Assembly: GCA_011321935.1 (NCBI GenBank)
Contig: DROJ01000092.1
Span: 1-42,118 of the forward strand
Direction of reading: 5' to 3'
DNA length: 42,118 nt
Origin: Bacteroidota bacterium
GTDB taxonomy: Bacteria > Bacteroidota > Bacteroidia > Chitinophagales > Saprospiraceae
The position numbers and the translations under genes are program-made. The notes under the pieces were generated by a model. It was not told the origin of the DNA and searched no databases. It was given only the letters and a program-made list of their open reading frames with translations. Positions 20,963 to 40,569 of this stretch are shown piece after piece; position 1 is the first letter of the stretch, and every line of letters starts with the position of its first letter.

Positions 20963-23900
20963 CTAATTGGACTTGAACACCTTCATCAACTGCGTTTTCA
21001 TCCTTCTGCGTTGCAATTTTATCACATACAAACCTTCGTAATAGCCGTTCAGGTCGATCTCGAATTTCTCCGTATTGGCAGGTATCTCGAATGTTTGCAA
21101 CACTTTGCCGAAAGGCGAAACGACCGAGCCAAAGGCCACTTCTTCGTTGGCTTTAAGCAACTCAACCGTAACCCTTCCCGTCGTTGGGTTGGGGAAAGTA
21201 TGAGCCAGCATGGTTCGTTCAGGTTGGAACATTACGCTTGCCGTTTGTGAATATCCCTCCTCTTCGGAGTCGTCCATCTGCTGATACTTTATGCGGTATA
21301 TATTTTCTCCAAAACGCGGTTGCTTGTCCATGTGTTGGTAGGTAGAGTTTTCTACACCTTCTACTCCTCGGAGTATGGCGAAGGTGCTGAAATCACTTCC
21401 ATCCTCTGATTTTTCAAGAAAGAAAATCGTATTTTTTGTGTCTCCATTAACCTCAAATTTCACCATCACCTCTTCGCCCTGCAACTCTGCATTGACATCG
21501 CTAATCAGAAGGGATGGCCTGCTTCCGCAGTTTTCGATTTCTACCGTGGTTGAGACAGAGAAGGAGCAGCCAAAACGGGTAACTGTCAACGAAACTGGAT
21601 AGAACCCTTCATTGGGCCATTGCGACAGCGCAACCCTTGTGGTGGCAGTGGAAGGCGAACCGCCGCTGAACTGCCAAAAATAATCCGCGCCTGCCCCGGC
21701 GATGGCTGCCTCAAAACGGCCTTGCTCGTTCATGCAAAGCAAGTTCGGTTCATCAATGATTTGCGAAAGCGGAAAGGCAATGATTTCTTTGGCCACCACA
21801 TTGCTCTCGCCGATGTAATCGCTGCAGCCTTCCCTCCTTGAACAACGGATATAATAAGTGGAGACACCTATCGGTCCGGGGTCATAAGTAGGGCTGTTCG
21901 AGTTGGGGATGATAGACCAGTTTGGATCGGTCGGGCCATTGTAGATCGGTACCGAACTTTTCAGCCACAGGTACTCGATGTTGCCGTAGCCGCCCGAAGG
22001 AAGGACAATATTTACGATCTCCGCAGGGTCGGCACCAACGCCGCAAAGCTGCTCATCGTAGCCAGTCACGCCGCCATCAGTTACGTTGTCGCATTCCCTG
22101 AAAATGCCCATGTCAATGGTCAGGTTGTCGAGGGTAAAGGGCAGCACGGTGATCGGGTCGGTAAAGCCGCTCACAAGGTCGGCATCGCTGTCAATATTGT
22201 CGTCGTTGCCGACATCTTTTGGTGAAATTTCATAGCCGCCGGGAGGGAAACTCGCGGGCATAAATTCAATCACATAATTGCCGGCAAAAATATCTTCAAA
22301 AAGGTAGTTGCCCAGAAGGTCGGTGACCTGCTGCGCAAGGATGGTATTGGCTGGCCAAGACCTCAACCGGACAATGACCCCCGGCACTCCCGCCTCGTTC
22401 GGGTCTTGCAGCCCGTCGTGGTTTTGGTCGTACCACACCTTGTCTCCCAAATCTATTTTTTCATCTAAAATAATCATCCCGCAGTCCCATCGGCTTTCGT
22501 ATTCTCCCTGTGAAATAGGGAAGCCCTGCGTCTGCCCGGTCGTCGGGTCAGGGTCGCTGTCGAGCAGGTCGTTGCCGACGTTTTGGTAGGTGACCACATG
22601 GTTGGGAGGAGTGTCGAATGTCAGCCGGTAAAAACCCGAAAGCAGGCCATCGAAAGCATAAAAACCATCCGCTTCGGAGACAGTGCTCAGGTCAACGGCA
22701 TCCCCGTTTCCGTCGGTGCCGGTGAGGTGGACAGTGATGCCGCCGACACCAACTTCCATCAAATCCTGGATGCCGTTTTGGTTCTCGTCGTTCCAGATAT
22801 AGTCCCCGATTTTTGAGGGTTCGATGAGGGTGATTTGAGCGGTAGCGGTACAACTGTTTGCGTCGGTAACAGTGACCGAATGAGTGCCGCCGCTGAGGCC
22901 GGAAACATTGGCCACGTTGGCGCCATTGCTCCAAAGGATGGAGTACGGAGGCACGCCTCCAGTTACGGCAACTTCTGCGCTGCCTTCTGTTCCTCCAAAT
23001 GTTTCTACTTCCGAAAGGATATTTGCGGTAGCGACCAAAAGGGGCGGCGAATTGACGGTCGCCGAATTGGTGACCGAGCATCCATCAGAATCGGTAACGG
23101 TCACGTCGTAAGTTCCAAAAAAGAGGTCGTTTATTTGCGGGGTCGTTTCGCCATTTGACCACTCATACGAGTAAGGCGGCGTGCCATCAACTCCCGAAGC
23201 TATTGCCACTCCATTGGCCACATCAAAACAGGTGGCATCAAAGGCATTGGTGGTGGAAGAAATGGTGGTGGTGGAAATGATCTGCGCTGCACTTGAAACC
23301 TGACAGCCGTGCGCATCGGTTATGGTCACCCCGTAGCTGCCGACTCCCAGCCCAAAAATGGCCTGGGTCGCCTGCCCCGTTTCCCATAAAATCTCATAGG
23401 GCTGCGTGCCGCCTTCGACCACGGCAACGGCAACTCCATCCGTATCGTCCACGCATACCACATTTATATTATTAAAACCCAAAGTCAGCCCAGCGGGCTG
23501 CGTCACGTTCACCACCAAGGTTTCGATGCAATTATTGGCATCGGTAACAGTGAGGCCATATGCGCCTGCAACCAAATTTGAAATGGCAGGGGAAGTCGAA
23601 TTGGAAGGGTCGTTCCATTGATAAGTATAAGGCGAAGTACCGCCTGCCACAGACACCGAAACAGCTCCGTCAGAAAAGCCAAAACAGGAGACATTGGTGA
23701 CCTGTTCGGTAATCTGCATCTGCGATGGGGCATCTATTGTGATGCTGCCCTGAGCGGTGCAGCCGTTGGCATCGGTAACGGTTACGGTGTATGTGCCGGC
23801 GCCCACATCGTCCAGCATTTGCACGGCAGGGTTGCCCGGTGCATCCCATTCGTAGAGATAGCCGCCGTTGCCAAATTCAGTGCCTCCCGTCACGTTCACA

Positions 23901-25678
23901 ATGGCCGTCCCGTCGCTTGAATCAAAGCAAGATGCTGGCGTGGAACTCAGCGAAAGGTCGAGTGCCGTCGGCTCCGAAATGCTCGTGCTTCCGGTAACTG
24001 AGCAGCCAATCGGATCGGTTACGGTCACATTATAAACGCCGGGCGCGAGTCCCGTTGCTGTCGGATTTGCCGAAGGCGGAACATTGTCCCAAATTACGCT
24101 AAAACCGCTGATGTCCTGACCGACCACGGCAACCGTTGCCGTTCCGTCATTTGCGCCAAAACAAAGCACATCGGTGGTCGAAATATTCAATACCGCAAGG
24201 TCGGGCGCACCCACTGATTGGCTTGCAGTTGCACTGCAATTATTGGCATCGGTAACAGTCACAGAATAAGTGCCTTGCGGCAAATTGGCAGCCGTCGCTG
24301 TGGTCTGCGCAGCGGGGTCATCCCATAAATAGGTGTAAGGTGCCACGCCCCCAGTCACCTGCGCGGTGGCCGTCCCGTCCGATGAATCGCCGCAAGTGGC
24401 ATCCACGCCGGAAGTGCTCAAATCCAAAGGCACGGCAGCATCAATTTGCGCTGTCCCGGTGCCGATGCAGCCCCGGTCGTCGGTGACCACCACCTCGTAA
24501 GTGGAAGGGGCAAGTGCCGTAGCTGTTTGGGTTGTTTGCGATAGGCCATCGTTCCATGAATATGAAAAAGGAGCGCTGCCGTCGGGCACGTCGGCAACCG
24601 TTGCAGTGCCGTCATTTGCGCCCACGCAAGTTTCTGCGGTAGCAGCAGTTTGCACATTCAGTGCCGGGCCATCGTTCAAGGTATAAGAAAGGCTGCCTGT
24701 GCAGCCATTGGCATCGGTAACGACTACTTCAAAAACGCCCGCGCCTTGATTTATTAAAATGGAATCCGTTTCGCCGGGCAGGCCGGTCCATTGGTAAGTA
24801 TAAGGAGCGGCGCCCCCTGATACGTTTATCACTGCCACCGACCCGTCGTTTGCCTCCAAACAGGTTTCGTCCATTCCGAACATGCCGGGTACAATGTCTC
24901 CGGTTACGGTCACTGTGACCATGTTGGAAACGCCGTCGTAATCGAGGCATCCATGCCTTCTGGAAAGGCGGATGTAATAGGTGGTCTCGGTGATTTCTTC
25001 GGGGTTGAACAAGGACATCGTTGCCCCGTCTATTTCCGTCCAATCGGCATTCATGGGCGTATAAGGAGTGCCGGTGGTACTGCTCACCCATTGGTATTCC
25101 ATGGCCAACGAACCGCCGGAAGGGAAGACCACATTGGTCAGTGCGGCGGGGTCGTAAGGCGGCTGGCAAAACACTTGGTCTTGGCCGATCTCGCCGCCGT
25201 CGGTCACGTTGTCGCAGCAGATGGCTTCTTTGACCACAATGTTGCTTTCGCCGATATAATCAGTGCAACCTGAGCGGCGCACACAGCGCCTGAACCAAGT
25301 CGTTTCGGTAATCGGCCCGGGGTCGTATTCTGCACTCGTCGAACCAATGATAGGGTCCCAAAACGAGGACGGCAGCGTCGGGTCGTCGGTAGTCGATATC
25401 CAGATAAATTCGAGCGTACCCGTACCCCCGATGGGCATTTCCACGCTAGTAATGATGGAGGGGTCCCAGTCGGGGTTGGGGCAGCCGAACTCGTCGGCCT
25501 CGATGATGCCGCCGTTGATGACGTTGTCGCATTGGGAGAAGGAAAGGTTGGCCAGCAGAAGAAAAGAAGCAGCCAAGAGAAGCCCTTTTGAGAAAAGTTG
25601 ATGGACAACAGGTCTCTGGGTTCTGTCATTTTTTTGAGATTGGTCAAACCGCACGAACTGCGTGAAAGAATCTCTCAT
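20963..25678 (-). CDS. Large T9SS-secreted protein with SprB repeats, SdrD-B-like domains and type A sorting domain
   Basis: About nine SprB-type repeats (TCFxxSDGTAxVxVTGGxxPYxYxWxx...GTYxVTVTDANGC), two SdrD-B modules (IGDYIWNDENQNGIQD; LGDKVWYDQNHDGLQD), C-terminal AHTFPNPTTGRVTVELL...GLYVIKLQRRRMKTQLMKVFKSN. Confidence 0.93.
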   Translation of the reverse strand: MRDSFTQFVRFDQSQKNDRTQRPVVHQLFSKGLLLAASFLLLANLSFSQCDNVINGGIIEADEFGCPNPDWDPSIITSVEMPIGGTGTLEFIWISTTDDPTLPSSFWDPIIGSTSAEYDPGPITETTWFRRCVRRSGCTDYIGESNIVVKEAICCDNVTDGGEIGQDQVFCQPPYDPAALTNVVFPSGGSLAMEYQWVSSTTGTPYTPMNADWTEIDGATMSLFNPEEITETTYYIRLSRRHGCLDYDGVSNMVTVTVTGDIVPGMFGMDETCLEANDGSVAVINVSGGAAPYTYQWTGLPGETDSILINQGAGVFEVVVTDANGCTGSLSYTLNDGPALNVQTAATAETCVGANDGTATVADVPDGSAPFSYSWNDGLSQTTQTATALAPSTYEVVVTDDRGCIGTGTAQIDAAVPLDLSTSGVDATCGDSSDGTATAQVTGGVAPYTYLWDDPAAQTTATAANLPQGTYSVTVTDANNCSATASQSVGAPDLAVLNISTTDVLCFGANDGTATVAVVGQDISGFSVIWDNVPPSANPTATGLAPGVYNVTVTDPIGCSVTGSTSISEPTALDLSLSSTPASCFDSSDGTAIVNVTGGTEFGNGGYLYEWDAPGNPAVQMLDDVGAGTYTVTVTDANGCTAQGSITIDAPSQMQITEQVTNVSCFGFSDGAVSVSVAGGTSPYTYQWNDPSNSTSPAISNLVAGAYGLTVTDANNCIETLVVNVTQPAGLTLGFNNINVVCVDDTDGVAVAVVEGGTQPYEILWETGQATQAIFGLGVGSYGVTITDAHGCQVSSAAQIISTTTISSTTNAFDATCFDVANGVAIASGVDGTPPYSYEWSNGETTPQINDLFFGTYDVTVTDSDGCSVTNSATVNSPPLLVATANILSEVETFGGTEGSAEVAVTGGVPPYSILWSNGANVANVSGLSGGTHSVTVTDANSCTATAQITLIEPSKIGDYIWNDENQNGIQDLMEVGVGGITVHLTGTDGNGDAVDLSTVSEADGFYAFDGLLSGFYRLTFDTPPNHVVTYQNVGNDLLDSDPDPTTGQTQGFPISQGEYESRWDCGMIILDEKIDLGDKVWYDQNHDGLQDPNEAGVPGVIVRLRSWPANTILAQQVTDLLGNYLFEDIFAGNYVIEFMPASFPPGGYEISPKDVGNDDNIDSDADLVSGFTDPITVLPFTLDNLTIDMGIFRECDNVTDGGVTGYDEQLCGVGADPAEIVNIVLPSGGYGNIEYLWLKSSVPIYNGPTDPNWSIIPNSNSPTYDPGPIGVSTYYIRCSRREGCSDYIGESNVVAKEIIAFPLSQIIDEPNLLCMNEQGRFEAAIAGAGADYFWQFSGGSPSTATTRVALSQWPNEGFYPVSLTVTRFGCSFSVSTTVEIENCGSRPSLLISDVNAELQGEEVMVKFEVNGDTKNTIFFLEKSEDGSDFSTFAILRGVEGVENSTYQHMDKQPRFGENIYRIKYQQMDDSEEEGYSQTASVMFQPERTMLAHTFPNPTTGRVTVELLKANEEVAFGSVVSPFGKVLQTFEIPANTEKFEIDLNGYYEGLYVIKLQRRRMKTQLMKVFKSN

Positions 25679-25928
25679 AGTTATCTTTTTCAAAACATAG
25701 AATTGTAACAAGAACACCTGCGAATGAACACATAGATGTTCCCGGGTTCATAACTGAATTAGCATTGGAAATAAAGGAGGGGAAGGAAAAGCAGCCGTCT
25801 GGCTACAGGTATATTTCAATTTTTGCAGTGAATGTTCGGAACGGTTTGTTCAAGAATTGATTGGAAAGAAAATTTAAAGAAATAGAGTATCTTTTTAATT
25901 AGCCGAGGTAAATGCACAAAATACTCAC

Positions 25929-28053: not shown

Positions 28054-30474
28054 ATGCCAACAAACAGGACATCCCTTTTTTCTTTTTTGAAAAAACACAA
28101 ATGGGGAGCAGCCATTTTGCTGGCCGTCCTTTTTCTGTTTTATTGGTTCTGCCTGCCCGACCCACTTTTCAAAGACCCTACCTGCCTTGTTTTGGAAGCC
28201 AATGACGGCAGCTTGCTCGGAGCGCAGATAGCTGCGGACGGGCAGTGGCGTTTCCCCCTCATCAAAGATGTTCCGCTGAAGTTTGAAAAAGCCATTTTGG
28301 CTTTTGAAGACAAACGTTTTTACTCCCATCCCGGCGTGGACTTGCTGGCATTGGGCAGGGCGTTCCGCCAAAATATAAAAAACGGAAAAGTGGTCAGCGG
28401 GGGCAGTACCTTGACCATGCAGGTCATCCGCTTGGCGAGGAAAGGGCAACGCAGGACGGTCTTTGAAAAAGCAATCGAAATGGTCTTGGCCACGAGGCTG
28501 GAACTGCGTTTTTCCAAAAAAGAAATTTTGGCGCTCTATGCCTCCTATGCCCCCTTCGGCGGCAATGTGGTGGGGCTGGAAACGGCCACTTGGAGGTACT
28601 TTGGCAAGCGGCCAAGCTCCCTTTCTTGGGCAGAGGCGGCCACCCTCGCAGTGCTGCCCAACAACCCCTCCATGATCCACCCCGCAAGGAACCGGGATGC
28701 ACTGAAAAGAAAAAGGAACCGCTTGCTCAAAAAACTTTTCGAGGAAGGAGTTTTTGATGAATTAAGCTATGAACTGGCGCTGGAAGAGCTGCTTCCCGGC
28801 AAGCCCCTCCCCCTTCCGAGGCTTGCCCCGCACCTGATGGACAGGGTGGCAAAAGAAAAAAAGAAGCAGCCCGAAATGGCCGGGAACAAAGTGCGGACAA
28901 CCATTGACAAAGCACTGCAAGAAAAGGTGAACCAACTGGTTGACCGCAAAAACAAGGCACTGAAAAACAACGAAATACACAACCTCGCAGCAATCATCAT
29001 CAATATTGAAAAAAACGAAGTCTTGGCCTATGTCGGCAATGCCCAAAACACGGGCGCCGAACACGGCAACTCGGTTGACATCATCACTGCCCCGCGCAGC
29101 ACGGGCAGCATCCTGAAACCTTTTCTTTATGCCATGATGATGCAGGAGGGAAAGCTGCTGCCCAAAAGCCTCGTCAACGACATACCCACCCAACTGAAAA
29201 GCTATCGGCCTGAAAATTACTCCAATACTTACGACGGCGTGGTGGCTGCCGACCGGGCACTTTCGAGGTCGCTGAACATCCCCTTCGTGCGGATGCTGCA
29301 AGAGTACAGCGTCGAGAAATTCCATTTTAATTTAAAAAAACTTGGCATCACGACTTTGCGCAATGCCCCCGTCCACTATGGCCTCACGTTGATACTCGGC
29401 GGCTCGGAAGCAACGCTTTGGGACTTGACCAGTATCTACGCGGGCATGTCCCGCAGGCTCTCCAATTTTTACCCAAACAATGGCTGGTACTCGGAAAGCG
29501 ATTTTACAAAACCGATTTTTTATATAAACCCCAAATCTGGTATTTCACAAAAAAAAGAGCTGTCGAAGGAAACCAAATACCTCACTGCCGATGCCATTTG
29601 GCTGACTTTCGAGGCCATGAAAAAAGTGGAGCGGCCCAACTCGCAAGGCGACTGGCAACGCTTTGAATCATCCCACCAGATTGCTTGGAAAACAGGTACG
29701 AGCTATGGCTTCCGCGATGCCTGGGCCATTGGCGTGACCCCAAAATATGCAGTCGGCGTATGGGCCGGCAATGCAGACGGAGAAGGCAGGTCGGGGCTGG
29801 TGGGCATCTATTCTGCCGCTCCTCTTTTGTTTGAAATATTCGACCTGCTGCCTACTTCGAGGTGGTTCGACCAGCCCTTTGATGCCATGAAGCAGGTGGC
29901 CGTTTGCCATCAGAGCGGCTATTTGGCAAAAGATATTTGTGAAGAAAAAGATACCATCTGGGCGGCCAAAAATGCCTTGAAGGCCCCTGCCTGCCCTTAC
30001 CACCGGTTGGTTCACCTCGACAAAAGCGAAAGTTTTCAGGTGAATAAAAATTGCGTTCCGCAAAATGAAATCACCGCCCGCCCCTGGTTTGTGCTGCCGC
30101 CTGTGGAGGAGTATTATTTTAAAATAAAACACCCCAACTACCGCAGCTTGCCCCCCGTAAGAGAGGGCTGCCAAACTGGCCAATCGGCCAATGCCAATCC
30201 CATGCAGTTGATCTATCCGGGCAACAACACAAAAATTTATGTGCCTACCGACCTTGACGGGAACGTGGGGCGGACTGTTTTCAAGGCAGCCCACCGCTTT
30301 GCAGGGGCAACGATCCATTGGCACATTGACAGGGAATACATCGGCAGCACTACGGACTTCCATAACATGGAACTCAACCCTCCTGCCGGACGGCATTCAT
30401 TGACCCTCGTGGATGACCGGGGCAACCGATTGATGCAAGCCTTTGAAATTTTATTGAAAGAAGGAGGGAAGTGA
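28054..30474 (+). CDS. pbpC: Penicillin-binding protein 1C
   Basis: ILAFEDKRFYSHPGVDLLALGRAFRQN...GGSTLTMQVIRLAR; transpeptidase STGSILKPFLYAMM and KTGTSYGFRDAWAIG; C-terminal BiPBP-like domain. Confidence 0.95.
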   Translation: MPTNRTSLFSFLKKHKWGAAILLAVLFLFYWFCLPDPLFKDPTCLVLEANDGSLLGAQIAADGQWRFPLIKDVPLKFEKAILAFEDKRFYSHPGVDLLALGRAFRQNIKNGKVVSGGSTLTMQVIRLARKGQRRTVFEKAIEMVLATRLELRFSKKEILALYASYAPFGGNVVGLETATWRYFGKRPSSLSWAEAATLAVLPNNPSMIHPARNRDALKRKRNRLLKKLFEEGVFDELSYELALEELLPGKPLPLPRLAPHLMDRVAKEKKKQPEMAGNKVRTTIDKALQEKVNQLVDRKNKALKNNEIHNLAAIIINIEKNEVLAYVGNAQNTGAEHGNSVDIITAPRSTGSILKPFLYAMMMQEGKLLPKSLVNDIPTQLKSYRPENYSNTYDGVVAADRALSRSLNIPFVRMLQEYSVEKFHFNLKKLGITTLRNAPVHYGLTLILGGSEATLWDLTSIYAGMSRRLSNFYPNNGWYSESDFTKPIFYINPKSGISQKKELSKETKYLTADAIWLTFEAMKKVERPNSQGDWQRFESSHQIAWKTGTSYGFRDAWAIGVTPKYAVGVWAGNADGEGRSGLVGIYSAAPLLFEIFDLLPTSRWFDQPFDAMKQVAVCHQSGYLAKDICEEKDTIWAAKNALKAPACPYHRLVHLDKSESFQVNKNCVPQNEITARPWFVLPPVEEYYFKIKHPNYRSLPPVREGCQTGQSANANPMQLIYPGNNTKIYVPTDLDGNVGRTVFKAAHRFAGATIHWHIDREYIGSTTDFHNMELNPPAGRHSLTLVDDRGNRLMQAFEILLKEGGK

Positions 30475-30657: not shown

Positions 30658-30700
30658 CAAATAATTTGGCAACACTGAAAAAACCTTCCCTTTAGGGCAT

Positions 30701-30784
30701 AAAAAAACTCCTACATCGGGGAGGCTAAAAAGCTGACGTAGGAGCACTAAACATACTATGAGAAAACTACACAGTGCAAAGAAG
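30701..30784 (-). ncRNA. Putative short structured transcript, paralog 1 (ends in intrinsic terminator)
   Basis: - strand CTTCTTTG...GTAGTTTTCTCATAGTATGTTTAGTGCTCCTACGTCAGC...GATGTAGGAGTTTTTTT. Confidence 0.45.
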
Positions 30785-30819
30785 GGCCAATTTTAGGTGT
30801 AAAAAAAGCGGTGATTAGG

Positions 30820-30847
30820 AAACGGTAGGTCTTGAACCGTGAACGGT
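30820..30847 (-). promoter_or_regulatory. Candidate LytTR operator: two direct repeats 21 bp apart
   Basis: - strand cctACCGTTcac...cctACCGTTtcc; aaacgg at 30820 and gaacgg at 30841 on + strand. Confidence 0.5.
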
Positions 30848-31162
30848 AGGAAGTATTTAGGATGTGGATTTATCATTATGTGTTCTGCGCAAAATACCAC
30901 CAAAACCCCATAACCAACTGATTTTTAATTATTAAAAAATATATTTATTTTTAATAAAAAGAAAATCTGGCATAGAATTGGGCTAAGGCTTCGTGTTCTT
31001 CGATGATTTTCTTGCACCAACTCACACATTTTTCCATTTTCCTTCTTACAGTTCCCACATTTCAAAATTCCAGAACAAAGGCTTTCCTTCAATCGGCAAT
31101 CCGCTTTTTATAGTCGGAATAAAATTCGGTTTAAAAAAAATTTGAACGGGTCAAGAATGGGT

Positions 31163-31245
31163 AAAAAAAAAATTCCTACACCCCAGAAGGGAAGAAAAGG
31201 TGTAGGAGAATTAAACATACTATGAGAAAACTTAGGCCAAAGATA
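31163..31245 (-). ncRNA. Putative short structured transcript, paralog 2
   Basis: - strand TATCTTTGGCCTAAGTTTTCTCATAGTATGTTTAATTCTCCTACACCTTTTCTTCCCTTCTGGGGTGTAGGAATTTTTTTTT. Confidence 0.5.
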
Positions 31246-31300
31246 CACTTGGCTTTTACAGGAAAAAAGCTACTTTTACGCAATGGTTGATCTGGTGAGG

Positions 31301-31349
31301 AAACGGTAGGTATTCTTTAGGAAACGGTAGGTTTTGACTAATAAACGGA
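31301..31349 (-). promoter_or_regulatory. Candidate LytTR operator: three half-sites at exact 21-bp spacing
   Basis: + strand aaacgg at 31301, 31322 and 31343; - strand TCCGTTTAT / ACCGTTTCC / ACCGTTTCC. Confidence 0.55.
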
Positions 31350-31533: not shown

Positions 31534-31550
31534 CTTAAATTTTGAGGGGA

Positions 31551-31634
31551 AAAAAAAGTCCTGCACCCCAGGAGGGAAAAATAAGGTGCAGGAAGATTAA
31601 ACAAACATACTATGAGAAAACTAGGGCAAAGATA
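31551..31634 (-). ncRNA. Putative short structured transcript, paralog 3
   Basis: - strand TATCTTTGCCCTAGTTTTCTCATAGTATGTTTGTTTAATCTTCCTGCACCTTATTTTTCCCTCCTGGGGTGCAGGACTTTTTTTT. Confidence 0.5.
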
Positions 31635-31731: not shown

Positions 31732-33603
31732 TCATTTCACCTCGATGTCCAAAATAGGTATCAACACTTCCACTCTTGTCCCCGCAGCATTTCCCGTTTC
31801 CTCATCGTACAGGTCAATGATTTTGACGACCTCTTCCCCGTTGCTCTTTTTTTGCAGGATTTCCAACCTGTCTTTCGTTATCCTCGTTCCCATTGATTTG
31901 TGGCTTTTCAGTTCAGGGTTGTTTTCCTGTATTTTGCGGATTTTTTCCCTCCCCACCCCGTTGTCTTCAACAATACAAAGGATGGTGTCCTCGTCTTTCA
32001 ATTTAAACTCGATTTTTATCATGCCCTTTTGTTTTGGCCGGATGCCATGTTCGATTGAGTTCTCCACATAGGGCTGGACGATCATGGTCGGCACCCCATA
32101 AATGTCTTCTTCTATTTCCTCGTCCACGATGATTTTATAAGTGAGTTTACTTTCAAAACGCAGGTTCACGTTGATCTCGAGGTAATTGCGCAAAAACTCG
32201 ATTTCATCTTCCAGCGAAATGATCTCCATGTCTGAATACTCCAGGCTCTGCCGCATCAGATGGGCAAATTGGGCGAGGTATTTAGCGGCCAGTTTGGGGT
32301 CGTTTGAAGTAATGAAATCCTGCACGGAGTTGAGTGCGTTAAAAACAAAATGGGGGTTCATCTGCGCCCGCAATGCCTTTAGTTGCAGGCCTGTGGCCTG
32401 CAATTTGAACATCTCGGCTTCCTTTTCCTTGCGCTCGGCTTCGTACTTTATTTCCAGTTCCCTGATCTCGTCTTCCTTGACTTCCTGCATCGCCCTCTCC
32501 ACTGCTTTTTCGTAAAATTTCTGGTATTCATAGGCATCTTTGTATTCCCCGTCGGCTGCATAAAACTCAGAAATGTCTTTTAAAATACCTGCCACTTGGT
32601 TTTGGTCTTTGCCTTTGTAAGCAAATTCCAATGCACTGAAATAGTGCGTCAATGCCTTTTTCCGCTTGCCCAATGCCTCAAAAGCTTTGGCCTTCCACCA
32701 ATTGATATTGGCCTGGTTGACATCTTTTTTCTCTTTGAAAAGCGGGTAGGCAGTGTCCAAAAGGTCAAGCCCTTCCTGAAATTTTCCTTTCCGGAAATAG
32801 CAATAACCGAGGTTGGCATAAGCAAGGGCCCTTGCCTGCTGGTTCACATCGTCAAGCACCTTGATCCCCAATTTGAAATATTTGATGGCGTTTTCGTCAT
32901 CCAAGGTGGCCATGTAGCTGTTGCCGACATTGAGGTAGTGCCATGACAGCCTCGAACGCATGCCCCGCCGCTCACAGATTTCCACTACTTCCCGGTAAGC
33001 CTTTATGCTCTTGTCGGGTTCATGGTTGAGGGCATGTATTTTTCCGATCCCGCTTTTGATGAGGGTCATAAAATAATAGTCCTTGCTCGACAATGGCTTG
33101 GCCGAAGTTTTCAGCCTCATTTCTGCTTCCAAAAAAGATTTGAGTGCTTTGGGCTTGTTTGAATGCTGGATATGAAGGTAGCCGATCCGGCTGATAAGGT
33201 AGGCCTCCAACCGGTCGTCGGGAAAAGTCCTGAGGTATTTCCTCGCATCTTCAAGGTAAGCATAGGCACTGTCAACCTTTCCCAAATTTATGAGCGTTCC
33301 CGCATAATCAATAAACGCTTCGGCCAATTGGTTGGCATCGCCCCGTGCGTTCAGCAAATCAATGGCTTTTTTGAAATGGATTTCCGACAGCTTATAATTG
33401 TAAAGCTGGTTTTCGACGATGCCAGTATAAAGGTTGTATTTCAGTTCAAAGTCGAGGTCGGAGACTTCCTGTAGCAGCTTGTTGAGTTCGGCAAGATACT
33501 TTTGGGCTTGCTGGATATTGGTAAAAAGGTGCTGCATTGCCCGTTCGTCCAGCCTCGACAACTTTTTGATGCGGTCATCTATGATACCCGGTGAGTGATC
33601 CAT
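31732..33603 (-). CDS. TPR-containing LytS-type sensor histidine kinase, apparently soluble
   Basis: Multiple TPR-like repeats; LKALRAQMNPHFVFNALNSVQDFI (LytS-type phosphoacceptor box), VPTMIVQPYVENSIEHGI, ENDNGVGR-type ATPase motif; no visible TM or signal peptide. Confidence 0.9.
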   Translation of the reverse strand: MDHSPGIIDDRIKKLSRLDERAMQHLFTNIQQAQKYLAELNKLLQEVSDLDFELKYNLYTGIVENQLYNYKLSEIHFKKAIDLLNARGDANQLAEAFIDYAGTLINLGKVDSAYAYLEDARKYLRTFPDDRLEAYLISRIGYLHIQHSNKPKALKSFLEAEMRLKTSAKPLSSKDYYFMTLIKSGIGKIHALNHEPDKSIKAYREVVEICERRGMRSRLSWHYLNVGNSYMATLDDENAIKYFKLGIKVLDDVNQQARALAYANLGYCYFRKGKFQEGLDLLDTAYPLFKEKKDVNQANINWWKAKAFEALGKRKKALTHYFSALEFAYKGKDQNQVAGILKDISEFYAADGEYKDAYEYQKFYEKAVERAMQEVKEDEIRELEIKYEAERKEKEAEMFKLQATGLQLKALRAQMNPHFVFNALNSVQDFITSNDPKLAAKYLAQFAHLMRQSLEYSDMEIISLEDEIEFLRNYLEINVNLRFESKLTYKIIVDEEIEEDIYGVPTMIVQPYVENSIEHGIRPKQKGMIKIEFKLKDEDTILCIVEDNGVGREKIRKIQENNPELKSHKSMGTRITKDRLEILQKKSNGEEVVKIIDLYDEETGNAAGTRVEVLIPILDIEVK

Positions 33604-33610
33604 TTAAAAT

Positions 33611-33670
33611 GAGAATTTGAGAATTTGAGAGTTTGAGAGTTTGAGAGTTTGAGAGTTTGAGAGTTTGAGT
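33611..33670. repeat. 8-bp microsatellite (gagtttga)~7.5, directly upstream of the kinase start codon
   Basis: gagaatttgagaatttgagagtttgagagtttgagagtttgagagtttgagagtttgag, within 10 nt of the ATG. Confidence 0.93.
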
Positions 33671-33737: not shown

Positions 33738-33780
33738 AAATAAAAAGAGACTGCGCACCATGTGCACAACCTCTTTTCAT
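33738..33780 (-). terminator. Intrinsic terminator downstream of the small peptide ORF
   Basis: - strand AGAGGTTGTGCAC-atg-GTGCGCAGTCTCTTTTTATTT. Confidence 0.6.
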
Positions 33781-33845: not shown

Positions 33846-34064
33846 TTATTGGGGAAGATCCCCGTCGCAAGGCTTTGGGCCGAACAGCCTTCCAAGAAAA
33901 CTCCGCTTTTTGATGTCGCTGCTTTGGTTGTTCGCACCACCAAAGTATTCAGACATTCTGTCTTTTTGTATGCGGTTCACATTCTCAAGATTGCTCAGGC
34001 TTTTGCCTTTTTTGTTGGTAGCCTCCTTCATAGTATCAAGATTTTTAGTAAAAAATCGCATCAT
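33846..34064 (-). CDS. Putative small peptide with Gly-Gly motif (possible secreted or signalling peptide precursor)
   Basis: MMRFFTKNLDTMKEATNKKGKSLSNLENVNRIQKDRMSEYFGGANNQSSDIKKRSFLGRLFGPKPCDGDLPQ; upstream TAAATTTG box at 34116-34123; terminator downstream. Confidence 0.4.
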   Translation of the reverse strand: MMRFFTKNLDTMKEATNKKGKSLSNLENVNRIQKDRMSEYFGGANNQSSDIKKRSFLGRLFGPKPCDGDLPQ

Positions 34065-34400
34065 AGTGTTTCCCGTTTGTAATGATGGGACAAGCGCTAT
34101 GATTTCAATAAAGCCCAAATTTAAGGGTAAATATTGGCCGATGAAAGTGTAGTTTCAAAAAAATCAACAATTTAAATACATTTATTTTTATCAAATAATT
34201 GTATTTTTTAAAGCCAGAACCCTGATTTGAACTTAGTTGAAAGCCTCCCAGCGAACTTGTCAAATCAATGTGTTTATGTTCAAATGTGTAAGTTTCTTAA
34301 ATCAGTGTGTTTTCTCCCGAATAAAAAAAGCCGCTTCAAAGCCCCCGTACCCGCCTCCGTTATTCATTTTCCCCGAGGTTTCGGGGCGGGCTATTTTCAT

Positions 34401-35216
34401 TTACAGTCCTTCTTCCAGCCTGCGCATCTGCTCCATGAAAGCAGGGCGGCGGCGCCTTGATACTTCGATTTTTTTCCCGTCGTCCATTATCAGGTAACCC
34501 CCATCGCCTTTAATGAACTTTCTCATATAGTTGAGGTTGATAACGTGCCGTTTGTGCACCCTGTAGAAGTTCACGCTGGCAAGCATGTCTTCATAGGCTT
34601 TGATGGTTTTTGAGGCCGTGATCCGTTCTTTGTTTTGCAGAAAAATATGGGTGTAATTGTCTTCTGCCTCAAAGCGCACAATGTCCTTGATGCTGACGAA
34701 ATAGATACCGTCAATGGCCGAAATGCTCATTTTTTCAAAAGCGTTCGGGTTTCTCAATTGCTTGTTGAAAATTTCGATCCGTTGCCCCATTTTTTCGGAA
34801 CGGGTCACCCGTACCCTGCTCACCGCTTGGATCAGTTCATCGGGGTCAATGGGTTTGAGGATGTAACCTATCGAGCTGTACTCACATGCTTTGATCGCAT
34901 GTTCGTTGTAGGCAGTAATGAATACGATTTCGAAATTGACGGGCCTAAGCTGGTCGAGCATTTTAAATACAAGGCCGTCGGGCAAGCTGATGTCGAGGAA
35001 GGCAATGTCGGGCTGAAAAGCCGGGTCTTCAAAGAGTTCGAGCGCCTCTTCAATGTTCAAAGCATCTCCAATAAGCTCAACTTCTGGACAATGTTTGCGA
35101 AGCAAGTTCTTGATGTTGTTCATGCTTCTAATCTCGTCTTCGACTATGATTGCCTTTACCACAGAAGTGCTTTTTGTACGTGTGATCGTTTTGATTGGTA
35201 CATGTTGTAAGACCAT
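34401..35216 (-). CDS. LytTR-family response regulator
   Basis: REC domain (VKAIIVEDEIRSMNNIKNLL...IAFLDISLPDG...YILKPIDPDEL) plus LytTR DNA-binding domain (IVRFEAEDNYTHIFLQ...FYRVHKRHVINLNYMRKF). Confidence 0.95.
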   Translation of the reverse strand: MVLQHVPIKTITRTKSTSVVKAIIVEDEIRSMNNIKNLLRKHCPEVELIGDALNIEEALELFEDPAFQPDIAFLDISLPDGLVFKMLDQLRPVNFEIVFITAYNEHAIKACEYSSIGYILKPIDPDELIQAVSRVRVTRSEKMGQRIEIFNKQLRNPNAFEKMSISAIDGIYFVSIKDIVRFEAEDNYTHIFLQNKERITASKTIKAYEDMLASVNFYRVHKRHVINLNYMRKFIKGDGGYLIMDDGKKIEVSRRRRPAFMEQMRRLEEGL

Positions 35217-37317: not shown

Positions 37318-40300
37318 ATGAAGACTTTATTTACGACACTTCTATTAACACTTGCCTTTATCCATGCCCGCGCACAGGAAAGCGATGCCTTTTTGGTGAA
37401 AAACTTCTTGATTACATCTGACAGCTTCGCAAACGTTGCTGAATACAAATCGGCCATCCTTTACCAAAAACGGGCGCTGAACCTGCTGCAGACCCAAACG
37501 CCCGTCCCCTACCCCAAACTCGTCAGCGTCTATCGGTCCATCGGTTTTTATTACCGGTTATGGGGCAAGTTTTCCGAAAGTTTGTTTTATCAAAAAAAGG
37601 CCGTCCAGATAGCGGAGTCCAAACTCGATAAAAACCATATCGAACTGGCAAAGGCATACAACAGCTACGGCAGTTATTTCAACGGCATCGGCCAGTACAA
37701 CAAGTCATTTGAGTATTTCAACAAAGCACTGCAGATCAGCCTCAAAGCCAAGCTGCCGACCGTGGGCGACTATTATAACAACGTCGGCATTGCCCAGCAA
37801 AACCTCGGCAACCTGGATGCCTCCCTGAAAACTTATCAAAAGTCACTCGACTACAACCGCTCAAAATACGGCATTTACAGCAGCAAGGCCGCTGACAATT
37901 TCGAGAACATGGGAACGGTGTTTTTTAAACTCGGGCGATACGATGATGCCATCGTGTATTTGGATACTACAGAAATAATATTGGACAGTATTTATGAGCA
38001 AGGCTCTCCTTATTTTGCTTCTTTGTACAACAATTTAGGGGCCGTATATACCACCAAAGGTGACCACCGTAAAGCCTTGAAATATTTGGAGGAGGGGCTG
38101 AAATTATACGAAAGATATTTAGGCAGCGAGCATCCTGACGTAGCGAATATTTATGCCAACACTGGGCTCCTTTTGCAGGACAGGGGCGAACTCGACAAGG
38201 CATTGGCATATTTGCACAAGGCGCAATCTATCCGTGAAATGAATTTTGGAAAAGACAACCCGCAAGTCGCACGCACCCATCTATACCTCGGCAACTGTTA
38301 CCTCGAAAAAAATATTTTTGACAAGGCTTTTGAGCATTTGAATACTGGCCTGGCCACTTATACAAAATTAAATTCGAGGGTTGACCCAGGCAGCATCGCC
38401 CACGCCAGGAACGAACTCGGCCTATATTATGAAAAAATAAAAAACTATAAAGAGGCCCTCAAACAATATAACAAAGCACTGGAAATAAACAGTAAAAAAC
38501 TGGAACTCAACGACCCCGACGTGGCCAATTCTTATGCAAGGATCGGAAAGATATATTTGGAACAAAAAAAATACGAAGAAGCAAATTCTTTTTTCTCAAA
38601 AGCATTAAAAATAAGGATAAAAGCTTTTGGTAAAAAGCATACCGACGTGGCCGACGCCTACCGCCTGCTTGCCCTTTCATGCCCTGAGGACGAGGCTTGT
38701 TTTTCGGAATATATTGACGCTGCTTTTGCTTCTATCAATTATAAAAACGGCAACAATTTCGAGTCCGTATTCTCGCCCATTGGTTTGTTAAATATTTTTC
38801 AGGCAGAAGGAAGTTTGAATTATGGTTTTTATAAAAAAACAAAAAAAGATATTTATTTAGAAAAAGCAGACCATATATACAGCAATGCAATTGAGTTGAT
38901 AAGTTTTATAAAAACGTCATTGGAGCAGCCGGGTTCGAGGCTCGCTTTGCAGGACAATTATTATTTGATATACGAAGAGGCCATCCTTGTAAAACATAAA
39001 TTAAAAGAATTAAACAACGATATAAAATATTGGAAAGAAGCATTTGCAATTGCCGAAAAAAGCAATGCCATATTATTGATAGAAGCGGTGCAAACCATTG
39101 ATGCGGAGCGCTTTGCAGGCATACCCGACAGTCTTGTGGAAATAGAACAACAATTAAAAGTTGACCTTTCTTTTTTGGAAAAACAACGGTTTGAGGAAGA
39201 AATTAAACCTGCCGGAAGCGACCAAAAAATATTAAAAGAAATAAACGACCGAATATTGGAACTCCACTCCCGGCAGCACGAACTTATTTCTTATTTCAAA
39301 AAAAACCACGAAGAGTATTTTAAATTAAAATACGATCCCAAGATTGTTTCCATAAAAAAAATACAAACCAATCTGCTGCGCCCCGACCAGACCATGCTCG
39401 CCTATTTTGTCGGCGAAAATAATCTGTTTGCATTTGTTATTTCAAAAAACAATTTTGAAGTGGTGCAAATCAAAAAAGATTTCCCGCTGGAAATATGGGT
39501 GGAAGAATTTCGGAACAGTATATATCGGTTTAACCCCGCTGATAATAGCCTCGTTTATCTAAACCAAAAACTGGCGAATATCGGATATGAATTATATCAA
39601 TTAATATTCGAACCCGTCGAAAAATCAATTTCCACCGATGCGCTCATTATCGTCCCGGGCGGGGTTTTAGGCTACCTGCCTTTCGATGCCCTTTTGGCCA
39701 GCCCGACCGAAAATTACAATGATTTCGACAACCTCGATTATCTGATCAATAAATATAAAATCAGTTATAGTTACTCCGCCACCTTATTGGAAGAAATGAA
39801 AAAAGGCAAAAGGAAAAGCAGCCCGCTCATTGCTTTTGCCCCCGCCTATTTTGGCGACACCTTAAATGTAAACCGCAGCAACAACCCGTGGCGGGCGGTA
39901 CTTGGGCAATTGAGGTTCAATGCGCAAGAGGCCATCAAAATACACGAAATAATGGGCGGCGAACTATACCTCGACAGCATGGCCACCGAGGCCAAGTTCA
40001 TGGAGCGGGCGCCTTATGCGGGCATCCTCCACCTCGCCACCCACGGCAAGGCCAACGACCGCCACGGCGAATATTCTTACCTCGCCTTTTACCAATTTCA
40101 GGACAGTATAGAAAACGAACTGCTCTTTGTGAAAAACCTCTACAATATGCACATCCCGGCATCGCTCGTGGTTTTGAGCGCCTGCGAAACGGGCATCGGC
40201 GAACTGCAGCGCGGGGAGGGGATCGTCAGCCTGTCGAGGGGCTTTTCTTATGCCGGGGCGGCCAGCATCGTCACTACCCAATGGAGCATTGACGACAATG

Positions 40301-40569
40301 CCTCCGCCACTATCATGGTCAGTTTTTATAAAAACCTAAAAAACGGGCAAACAAAAGACGTGGCATTGAGGAATGCAAAACTGGCCTACATCAAAGCCAA
40401 CAAAGGAAACAATAGGACGCACCCGCTGTTCTGGGCGGCCTTTGTTCCGGTCGGGAATATGGATGCTTTGGAGATGGGGTGGCCGTGGTGGGTGTGGACA
40501 TTGATTGGTATAACTGTCTTCGGAGTGCTTTGGTTTTTGAAAAATAGGTCTGTTTCCCGTCGAAAATAG
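37318..40569 (+). CDS. TPR-CHAT domain protein with N-terminal signal peptide and C-terminal TM helix
   Basis: Signal peptide MKTLFTTLLLTLAFIHARAQ; many TPRs; CHAT motifs ILHLATHGKAND and LVVLSACETGIGELQRGEGIVSLSRGFSYAGAASIVTTQW; WPWWVWTLIGITVFGVLWFLKNR. Confidence 0.93.
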   Translation: MKTLFTTLLLTLAFIHARAQESDAFLVKNFLITSDSFANVAEYKSAILYQKRALNLLQTQTPVPYPKLVSVYRSIGFYYRLWGKFSESLFYQKKAVQIAESKLDKNHIELAKAYNSYGSYFNGIGQYNKSFEYFNKALQISLKAKLPTVGDYYNNVGIAQQNLGNLDASLKTYQKSLDYNRSKYGIYSSKAADNFENMGTVFFKLGRYDDAIVYLDTTEIILDSIYEQGSPYFASLYNNLGAVYTTKGDHRKALKYLEEGLKLYERYLGSEHPDVANIYANTGLLLQDRGELDKALAYLHKAQSIREMNFGKDNPQVARTHLYLGNCYLEKNIFDKAFEHLNTGLATYTKLNSRVDPGSIAHARNELGLYYEKIKNYKEALKQYNKALEINSKKLELNDPDVANSYARIGKIYLEQKKYEEANSFFSKALKIRIKAFGKKHTDVADAYRLLALSCPEDEACFSEYIDAAFASINYKNGNNFESVFSPIGLLNIFQAEGSLNYGFYKKTKKDIYLEKADHIYSNAIELISFIKTSLEQPGSRLALQDNYYLIYEEAILVKHKLKELNNDIKYWKEAFAIAEKSNAILLIEAVQTIDAERFAGIPDSLVEIEQQLKVDLSFLEKQRFEEEIKPAGSDQKILKEINDRILELHSRQHELISYFKKNHEEYFKLKYDPKIVSIKKIQTNLLRPDQTMLAYFVGENNLFAFVISKNNFEVVQIKKDFPLEIWVEEFRNSIYRFNPADNSLVYLNQKLANIGYELYQLIFEPVEKSISTDALIIVPGGVLGYLPFDALLASPTENYNDFDNLDYLINKYKISYSYSATLLEEMKKGKRKSSPLIAFAPAYFGDTLNVNRSNNPWRAVLGQLRFNAQEAIKIHEIMGGELYLDSMATEAKFMERAPYAGILHLATHGKANDRHGEYSYLAFYQFQDSIENELLFVKNLYNMHIPASLVVLSACETGIGELQRGEGIVSLSRGFSYAGAASIVTTQWSIDDNASATIMVSFYKNLKNGQTKDVALRNAKLAYIKANKGNNRTHPLFWAAFVPVGNMDALEMGWPWWVWTLIGITVFGVLWFLKNRSVSRRK

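Follow-up and report, generated by a model that had tools for sequence, protein, structure and literature searches.

A peptide with a double-glycine (GG) leader, a soluble TPR histidine kinase, a LytTR response regulator and a set of small RNAs probably form a self-contained feedback circuit of Saprospiraceae. The circuit was recognized in a stretch of 42,118 nucleotides, hereafter the window, in which all its parts lie on the minus strand (Table 1). What we observe is that the genes are conserved and syntenic, that the four parts occur together in genomes, that the RNAs covary, that a repeat array precedes some of them, and that their complementarity to the start of the peptide gene is significant.

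Table 1. Features of the locus, in the numbering of the window
Feature	Position	Strand	Evidence or remark
LytTR response regulator	34401..35216	-	PF04397 E=3e-19, PF00072 E=2e-13
Bacteroidota -7 promoter box of the peptide gene, TAAATTTG	34116..34123	-	52 nt upstream of ATG 34064
GG-leader peptide gene	33846..34031	-	61 aa from ATG 34031; conservation, dN/dS
Pairing region (AATCTTGATACTATGAAGG), approximate, covers ATG 34031	34016..34040	-	predicted duplex with small RNA 5' ends
Intrinsic terminator 3' of the peptide gene	33742..33774	-	hairpin -13.8 kcal/mol + T5
Soluble TPR histidine kinase	31732..33603	-	PF06580 E=4e-22, TPR_12
Promoter box TATCTTTG of small RNA copy 1	31627..31634	-	
Small RNA copy 1 (type 1)	31550..31622	-	covariance model 75.1 bits, E=9e-12
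Four direct repeats (CCGTTTATTAG, CCGTTTCCTAA, CCGTTTCCTCA, CCATTGCGTAA), 20-21 bp apart	31276..31348	-	upstream of small RNA 2
Promoter box TATCTTTG of small RNA copy 2	31238..31245	-	
Small RNA copy 2 (type 2)	31165..31232	-	covariance model 81.4 bits, E=7e-13
CCGTTTCCTAA repeat (exact copy 30815-30825) and a weaker repeat	30815..30868	-	upstream of small RNA 3
Small RNA copy 3 (type 3)	30700..30768	-	covariance model 71.7 bits, E=4e-11

The small ORF between the kinase and the regulator is a real, conserved gene. The preliminary description had placed an ORF of about 72 aa at 33846-34123, with a promoter box some 50 nt upstream and a hairpin followed by a T-tract downstream. The box and the terminator are both where they were said to be, and the ORF is indeed found on the minus strand, ends at 33846 and measures 72 aa when read from the in-frame upstream ATG at 34064; position 34123, however, belongs to the promoter box and not to the ORF. 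We favour ATG 34031 as the start, since it aligns with the starts in other genera (MGK...) and agrees with the predicted pairing of the small RNA. Read from there, the peptide is MKEATNKKGKS...SEYFGG, its leader ending in ...NRIQKDRMSEYFGG, followed by the core ANNQSSDIKKRSFLGRLFGPKPCDGDLPQ. The exact start in the window's own genus remains unsettled, because the extension before the second ATG is in frame there as well. In the genus and its nearest relative, 13 of 14 orthologous loci have a TAnnTTTG box at a similar distance (-86 to -100 from the MGK-type start), and terminators below -8 kcal/mol follow the peptide at 35 of 56 loci and in none of the shuffles. Upstream of the peptide, k-mer enrichment gave no signal beyond relatedness, and an inverted repeat at about 34180-34210 was rejected as an operator, being common only to the closest relative.

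Orthologues occupy the same position in relatives, with identities of 77-79% and 54-57%; a scan of genome contigs gave 79% and 57% for two that are flanked by the same pair of genes. Among the closest pairs dN/dS is 0.015-0.11 overall, and 0.015-0.08 within the window's genus. An ORF that was not conserved, or was frameshifted in close relatives, would have refuted the preliminary description; it is conserved instead, and under purifying selection. Profile searches found the peptide throughout Saprospiraceae, and searches at the level of the order and the phylum yielded no convincing homologues outside the family; the matches obtained there were discarded as generic GG-leader peptides, mostly Cys-containing, without the kinase pair.

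The anatomy of the precursor was counted on 55 sequences, the one locus with GT instead of GG (L048) being left out of the 56. Counting back from the cleavage point, the leader has L or I at -12 (50/55), M at -7 (51/55), I, V or F at -4, and GG at -2/-1 (55/55), and as far as its residues tell it is a match to the standard consensus for C39 (GG) exporters. No hydrophobic signal peptide was seen by eye in the precursors, which read as GG-leader peptides. The core is basic (net positive in 53/55), variable in its middle and conserved at its end, where a tail like CGGI[VLM]PQ has C in 47, P in 54 and Q in 49 of the 55 sequences, with G, G, I and L/M/V between C and P. The Cys is thus not obligatory; the peptide of the window ends in PCDGDLPQ. 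One locus (L146, G046) carries two different GG peptides in tandem, with the regulator on one side and the kinase on the other.

The kinase consists of TPRs (about residues 7-350) and a LytS-type kinase part (about 400-623). The preliminary description had noticed no transmembrane segment in it, and this holds more widely: none of the 25 kinases scanned has a hydrophobic segment, the highest Kyte-Doolittle mean over 19 residues being 0.83 in the window's kinase and at most 1.45 in its orthologues. An AlphaFold2 model built from three sequences gave a confident TPR solenoid over residues 11-330 (block pLDDT mostly 80-96) and a poor kinase part. The bacterial solved structures nearest to the TPR model are the RRNPP sensors Rap and NprR (TMt 0.63 for NprR), but the best PDB matches overall are to eukaryotic LGN, so the resemblance is to TPR solenoids in general. 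Near-invariant polar residues are found at 13 of 163 positions in the A helices and at 0 of 130 in the B helices (p=7e-4). The A helices of TPRs line the concave surface. Because the near-invariant polar residues fall in A helices, binding of a peptide by the modelled TPR region is plausible; it has not been shown. That the kinase senses this particular peptide is an inference, without binding data. Just upstream of the kinase start, 7.5 tandem copies of an 8-bp unit (TGAGAGTT) occupy 33610-33669, and slippage in this array could vary expression.

The preliminary description suspected a single circuit of peptide, TPR kinase and LytTR regulator, a suspicion that is now strongly supported by synteny and by co-occurrence even where the genes lie far apart. 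The regulator is located upstream of the peptide at 54 of 56 loci and the kinase downstream at 48; both partners are present at 46 loci, and at least one is adjacent at all 56. We then have the survey of 198 Saprospiraceae genomes at least 90% complete. A strict search identified the kinase in 95 of them, and among these 95 are all 81 genomes whose peptide was picked up by a profile (E < 9e-4). Fourteen genomes appeared to have the kinase only; reading 13 of them by hand upstream of the kinase revealed 8 diverged peptides, so that 6 remain without one. The final tally is a peptide in 89 of the 198 genomes, every one of them with the kinase (89 of the 95 kinase genomes), and 103 genomes with neither (Fisher p=1e-49, not corrected for phylogeny; the p-values given in this work ignore shared ancestry). 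Linkage by itself cannot account for the co-occurrence, since 18 of the 81 genomes have no kinase within 1 kb of the peptide. At one locus (L063, G010) the regulator directly adjoins the kinase with no peptide between them, and a small RNA copy is still found downstream.

By which exporter would such a precursor leave the cell? Secretion had been doubted in the preliminary description for want of a transporter nearby, and there is indeed no C39 exporter near the locus; the genome of the window, however, has two C39 proteins elsewhere, and the presence of C39 tracks that of the peptide, with exporters in 79 of the 81 genomes with a profile-detected peptide against 40 of the 117 without. In genus g27 (L144, L150, L154) kinase, RNA and peptide are present and C39 is missing from all three genomes; its peptides have no GG leader and keep the tail ([YF]CG..TPQ) as YCGVSTPQ, YCGTTTPQ or FCGMPTPQ. 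Most simply read, the leader is there for the exporter and the tail for the kinase. The case is suggestive and no proof, because it is a single evolutionary event and because genome G079, whose leaderless peptide has lost GG and has the conserved tail, retains C39. In a C39 phylogeny, the transporters of peptide genomes with a single C39 are mostly separate from those of peptide-less genomes. The closest exporter candidate in the window's genome (contig C24) groups with the latter; the attempt to assign a cognate exporter by phylogeny was thus given up, and it is uncertain which C39 of this genome is the cognate one. Where a genome has a single C39, the exporter often stands beside an alpha/beta hydrolase, a methionyl-tRNA formyltransferase and/or a downstream HlyD-like protein (L126, L127, L128, L131, L134, L135).

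A repeated segment downstream of the kinase, when followed up, led to three small-RNA genes in tandem 3' of the kinase and on the same strand, which lie outside the coordinates of the preliminary description and were missed there. The RNAs are roughly 60-73 nt long, have a predicted 5' start at AGUUUUCUC and share the invariant 5' segment AGTTTTCTCATAGTATGTTT; their promoter boxes lie about 12-16 nt upstream and are weak for copy 3. The terminator stem has changes on both sides at 7 of 10 pairs, that is, covariation. A search of the window with Rfam at the gathering threshold left the small RNAs unmatched and reported only a tRNA. A covariance model detects one to four copies in 88 of the 198 genomes, namely 87 of the 95 with the kinase and 1 of the 103 without it; three more genomes, of genus g49, in which the RNA was recognized by eye next to the kinase, raise the former number to 90 of 95. 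In several genomes the small RNAs are on other contigs or megabases away. Type-1 RNAs (e.g. L042, L044, L045, L047) have AT-rich inverted repeats just 5' of the promoter box, whose arms change yet stay complementary. As to the surroundings of the locus, a PBP1C gene (28054-30474) is convergent with the kinase and RNA array, likewise at L041-L043, L050, L052 and L056; the window also encodes a protein of 1584 aa (20963-25717), in which SprB repeats and SdrD B-like domains are combined with a type 9 secretion sorting tail, and a TPR-CHAT domain protein of 1083 aa (37318-40569).

The promoters of type-2 and type-3 RNAs contain direct repeats of CTACCGTTTCCTAAA at a spacing of about 20-21 bp, and the same arrangement is found upstream of both types in other genera. 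A repeat pair precedes 24 of 43 type-2 and 10 of 33 type-3 RNAs, against 0.2-0.3% in shuffles; it was found upstream of 2 of 29 type-1 RNAs and of none of the 56 peptide genes. All three exact matches to ACCGTTTCCT[AC]A in the window fall in the repeats upstream of small RNAs 2 and 3. A LytTR site usually consists of elements repeated in tandem, each with a CGTT core and about two helical turns from the next. It is because of this resemblance that we take the CCGTTTCCTAA repeats for a good candidate LytTR operator and the regulator for the protein that would bind them; the binding itself is inferred.

Between the 5' end of the small RNA and the start of the peptide mRNA there is complementarity, typically over 12-16 bp across the AUG. 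The predicted duplex in the window amounts to -17.2 kcal/mol, compared with a mean of -8.7 for shuffles, and duplexes of -14 kcal/mol or stronger are predicted at 33 of 56 loci (59%) against 10 of 157 control gene starts (6%; p=1e-10), even though each control start was given three chances; among 35 further RNA-bearing genomes 22 reach -12. Predicted pairing is weak or absent in about a third of the RNA-bearing genomes. Genera without RNA might serve as a negative control, and this holds for g7, which keeps peptide and kinase and has neither a detected RNA nor pairing; since g7 keeps the two genes in this state, the RNA arm is dispensable there. The control failed for g49, which scored as RNA-negative by the model and had pairing (-15.1), until its RNA was found beside the kinase. 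As the pairing covers the start codon, repression of peptide translation is the likeliest effect of the RNA, again by inference.

Taken together, the circuit that we propose would run as follows. A C39 peptidase ABC transporter whose gene lies elsewhere would cut the precursor behind its double-glycine leader and export it, steps that are so far only inferred. The ligand, be it the basic peptide in its mature form or a C-terminal piece of it that ends in (C)GxxxPQ, would sit in the concave TPR groove of the cytosolic kinase, and whether it gets there after re-import or inside the producing cell is unresolved; no direct evidence of such binding exists. The kinase would then phosphorylate the LytTR regulator, which may bind the 21-bp-spaced CCGTTTCCTAA repeats, an interaction likewise without direct evidence, and so turn on one to four copies of the small RNA. 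The RNA, pairing through its invariant 5' end at the site where translation of the peptide mRNA begins, would repress that mRNA, giving feedback on signal production, although the direction of this control has no direct support either. The RNA probably pairs with other mRNAs, too.

Could the same parts be put together differently? That the small ORF is a chance reading frame without function might be suggested by the lack of any Pfam match and of any NCBIfam match above cut-off, but conservation and purifying selection refute it, and we give it practically no credence. A more substantial alternative is that the peptide acts on the kinase within the cell that produces it, as its ligand or as a brake, C39 merely removing the excess, so that no signal passes between cells. 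The kinase is cytosolic, no importer is linked to the locus, and the leaderless peptides of g27 and G079, in g27 without any C39, keep the conserved tail, all of which would suit this possibility; a textbook GG leader and a C39 kept in most genomes are nevertheless hard to explain if export were irrelevant, and on the whole we hold it to be unlikely, though a possibility to be kept in mind. It is quite improbable, in our judgement, that the kinase and regulator sense something else and control the peptide as an output such as a bacteriocin or RiPP. Such GG leaders are typical of Bacteroidota natural-product precursors, and a single homologue weakly matches TIGR04149 (E=0.012, best 15.5 bits against a cut-off of 25). 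However, there is usually one copy per genome, the 56 loci have LytTR, kinase and unrelated genes as neighbours and no modifying enzyme or immunity gene adjacent, and the tail is conserved across about 50 genera rather than diversifying, its Cys moreover being dispensable. A RiPP or bacteriocin precursor was rejected for lack of a family match above cut-off and of enzymes.

The RNAs might also belong to a separate LytTR-regulated system with other mRNAs as targets, the pairing with the peptide start being incidental to a shared AUG and an A-rich context. Their 5' segment is conserved beyond what any one target would call for, and strong pairing is missing from the third of RNA-bearing genomes mentioned above; control gene starts, on the other hand, pair far less, g7 lacks pairing and RNA alike, and in g49 the pairing preceded the discovery of its RNA. 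We regard such independence of the RNAs as rather unlikely, and the feedback circuit that includes them as the preferred reading.

Each ingredient of this circuit resembles a known kind. With ComCDE/Blp of streptococci it shares a short GG-leader peptide, a C39 exporter in the genome, a histidine kinase and a LytTR regulator. The kinases of ComCDE/Blp are membrane receptors; the one described here is a soluble TPR protein rather than a polytopic membrane protein, and small RNAs are part of the locus. RRNPP systems (Rap, NprR, PlcR, Rgg) also have a cytosolic TPR solenoid adjoining a short peptide gene with an informative C-terminus, but here the receptor carries a histidine kinase domain (PF06580) in one protein with its TPRs and is not an HTH factor or phosphatase, the peptide has a GG leader and the host is a Gram-negative member of Bacteroidota. 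Like the Qrr RNAs of Vibrio, the small RNAs come in several near-identical copies with an invariant pairing segment and a terminator, in a two-component signalling pathway. Qrr RNAs are controlled by sigma-54 and LuxO, whereas those described here are unrelated in sequence, have TAnnTTTG promoters with LytTR-like repeats, and have the signal precursor as predicted target. TIGR04149 and related GG-leader RiPP precursors of Bacteroidota share the leader type and differ in that our peptides score below the family cut-off, lack modification enzymes and have a conserved C-terminus. As neither ComCDE, with its membrane kinase, nor RRNPP, with its receptor class, fits, the circuit is to be seen as a variant. 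A large survey of RRNPP systems was restricted to Firmicutes and viruses and, among receptors, to lengths of 250-500 aa (PMC10075063), and owing to these limits of taxon and receptor size it would have missed the Saprospiraceae circuit. The accessible part of a Bacteroidales RiPP survey describes kinase or TPR genes near precursors, but not this arrangement (PMC10352776). No peptide-pheromone circuit in Bacteroidota was found in the open-access literature searched, an absence that is suggestive only.

Most of what is known of peptide quorum sensing concerns Gram-positive bacteria. Whether we face an undescribed, family-wide peptide communication in Bacteroidota, in which a GG-exported peptide acts on a soluble TPR kinase and LytTR-driven small RNAs silence the translation of the peptide, can be answered only tentatively, and we would stop somewhat short of an even chance. 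The small RNAs themselves represent an unreported small-RNA family, and with the locus comes the notion of a soluble TPR kinase as peptide receptor. It is present in about half of the sampled genera of Saprospiraceae, bacteria that are common in activated sludge and marine biofilms. With a candidate locus that offers a receptor, a regulator, an operator, a regulatory RNA and a predicted C-terminus of the ligand, peptide talk among Saprospiraceae becomes directly testable.
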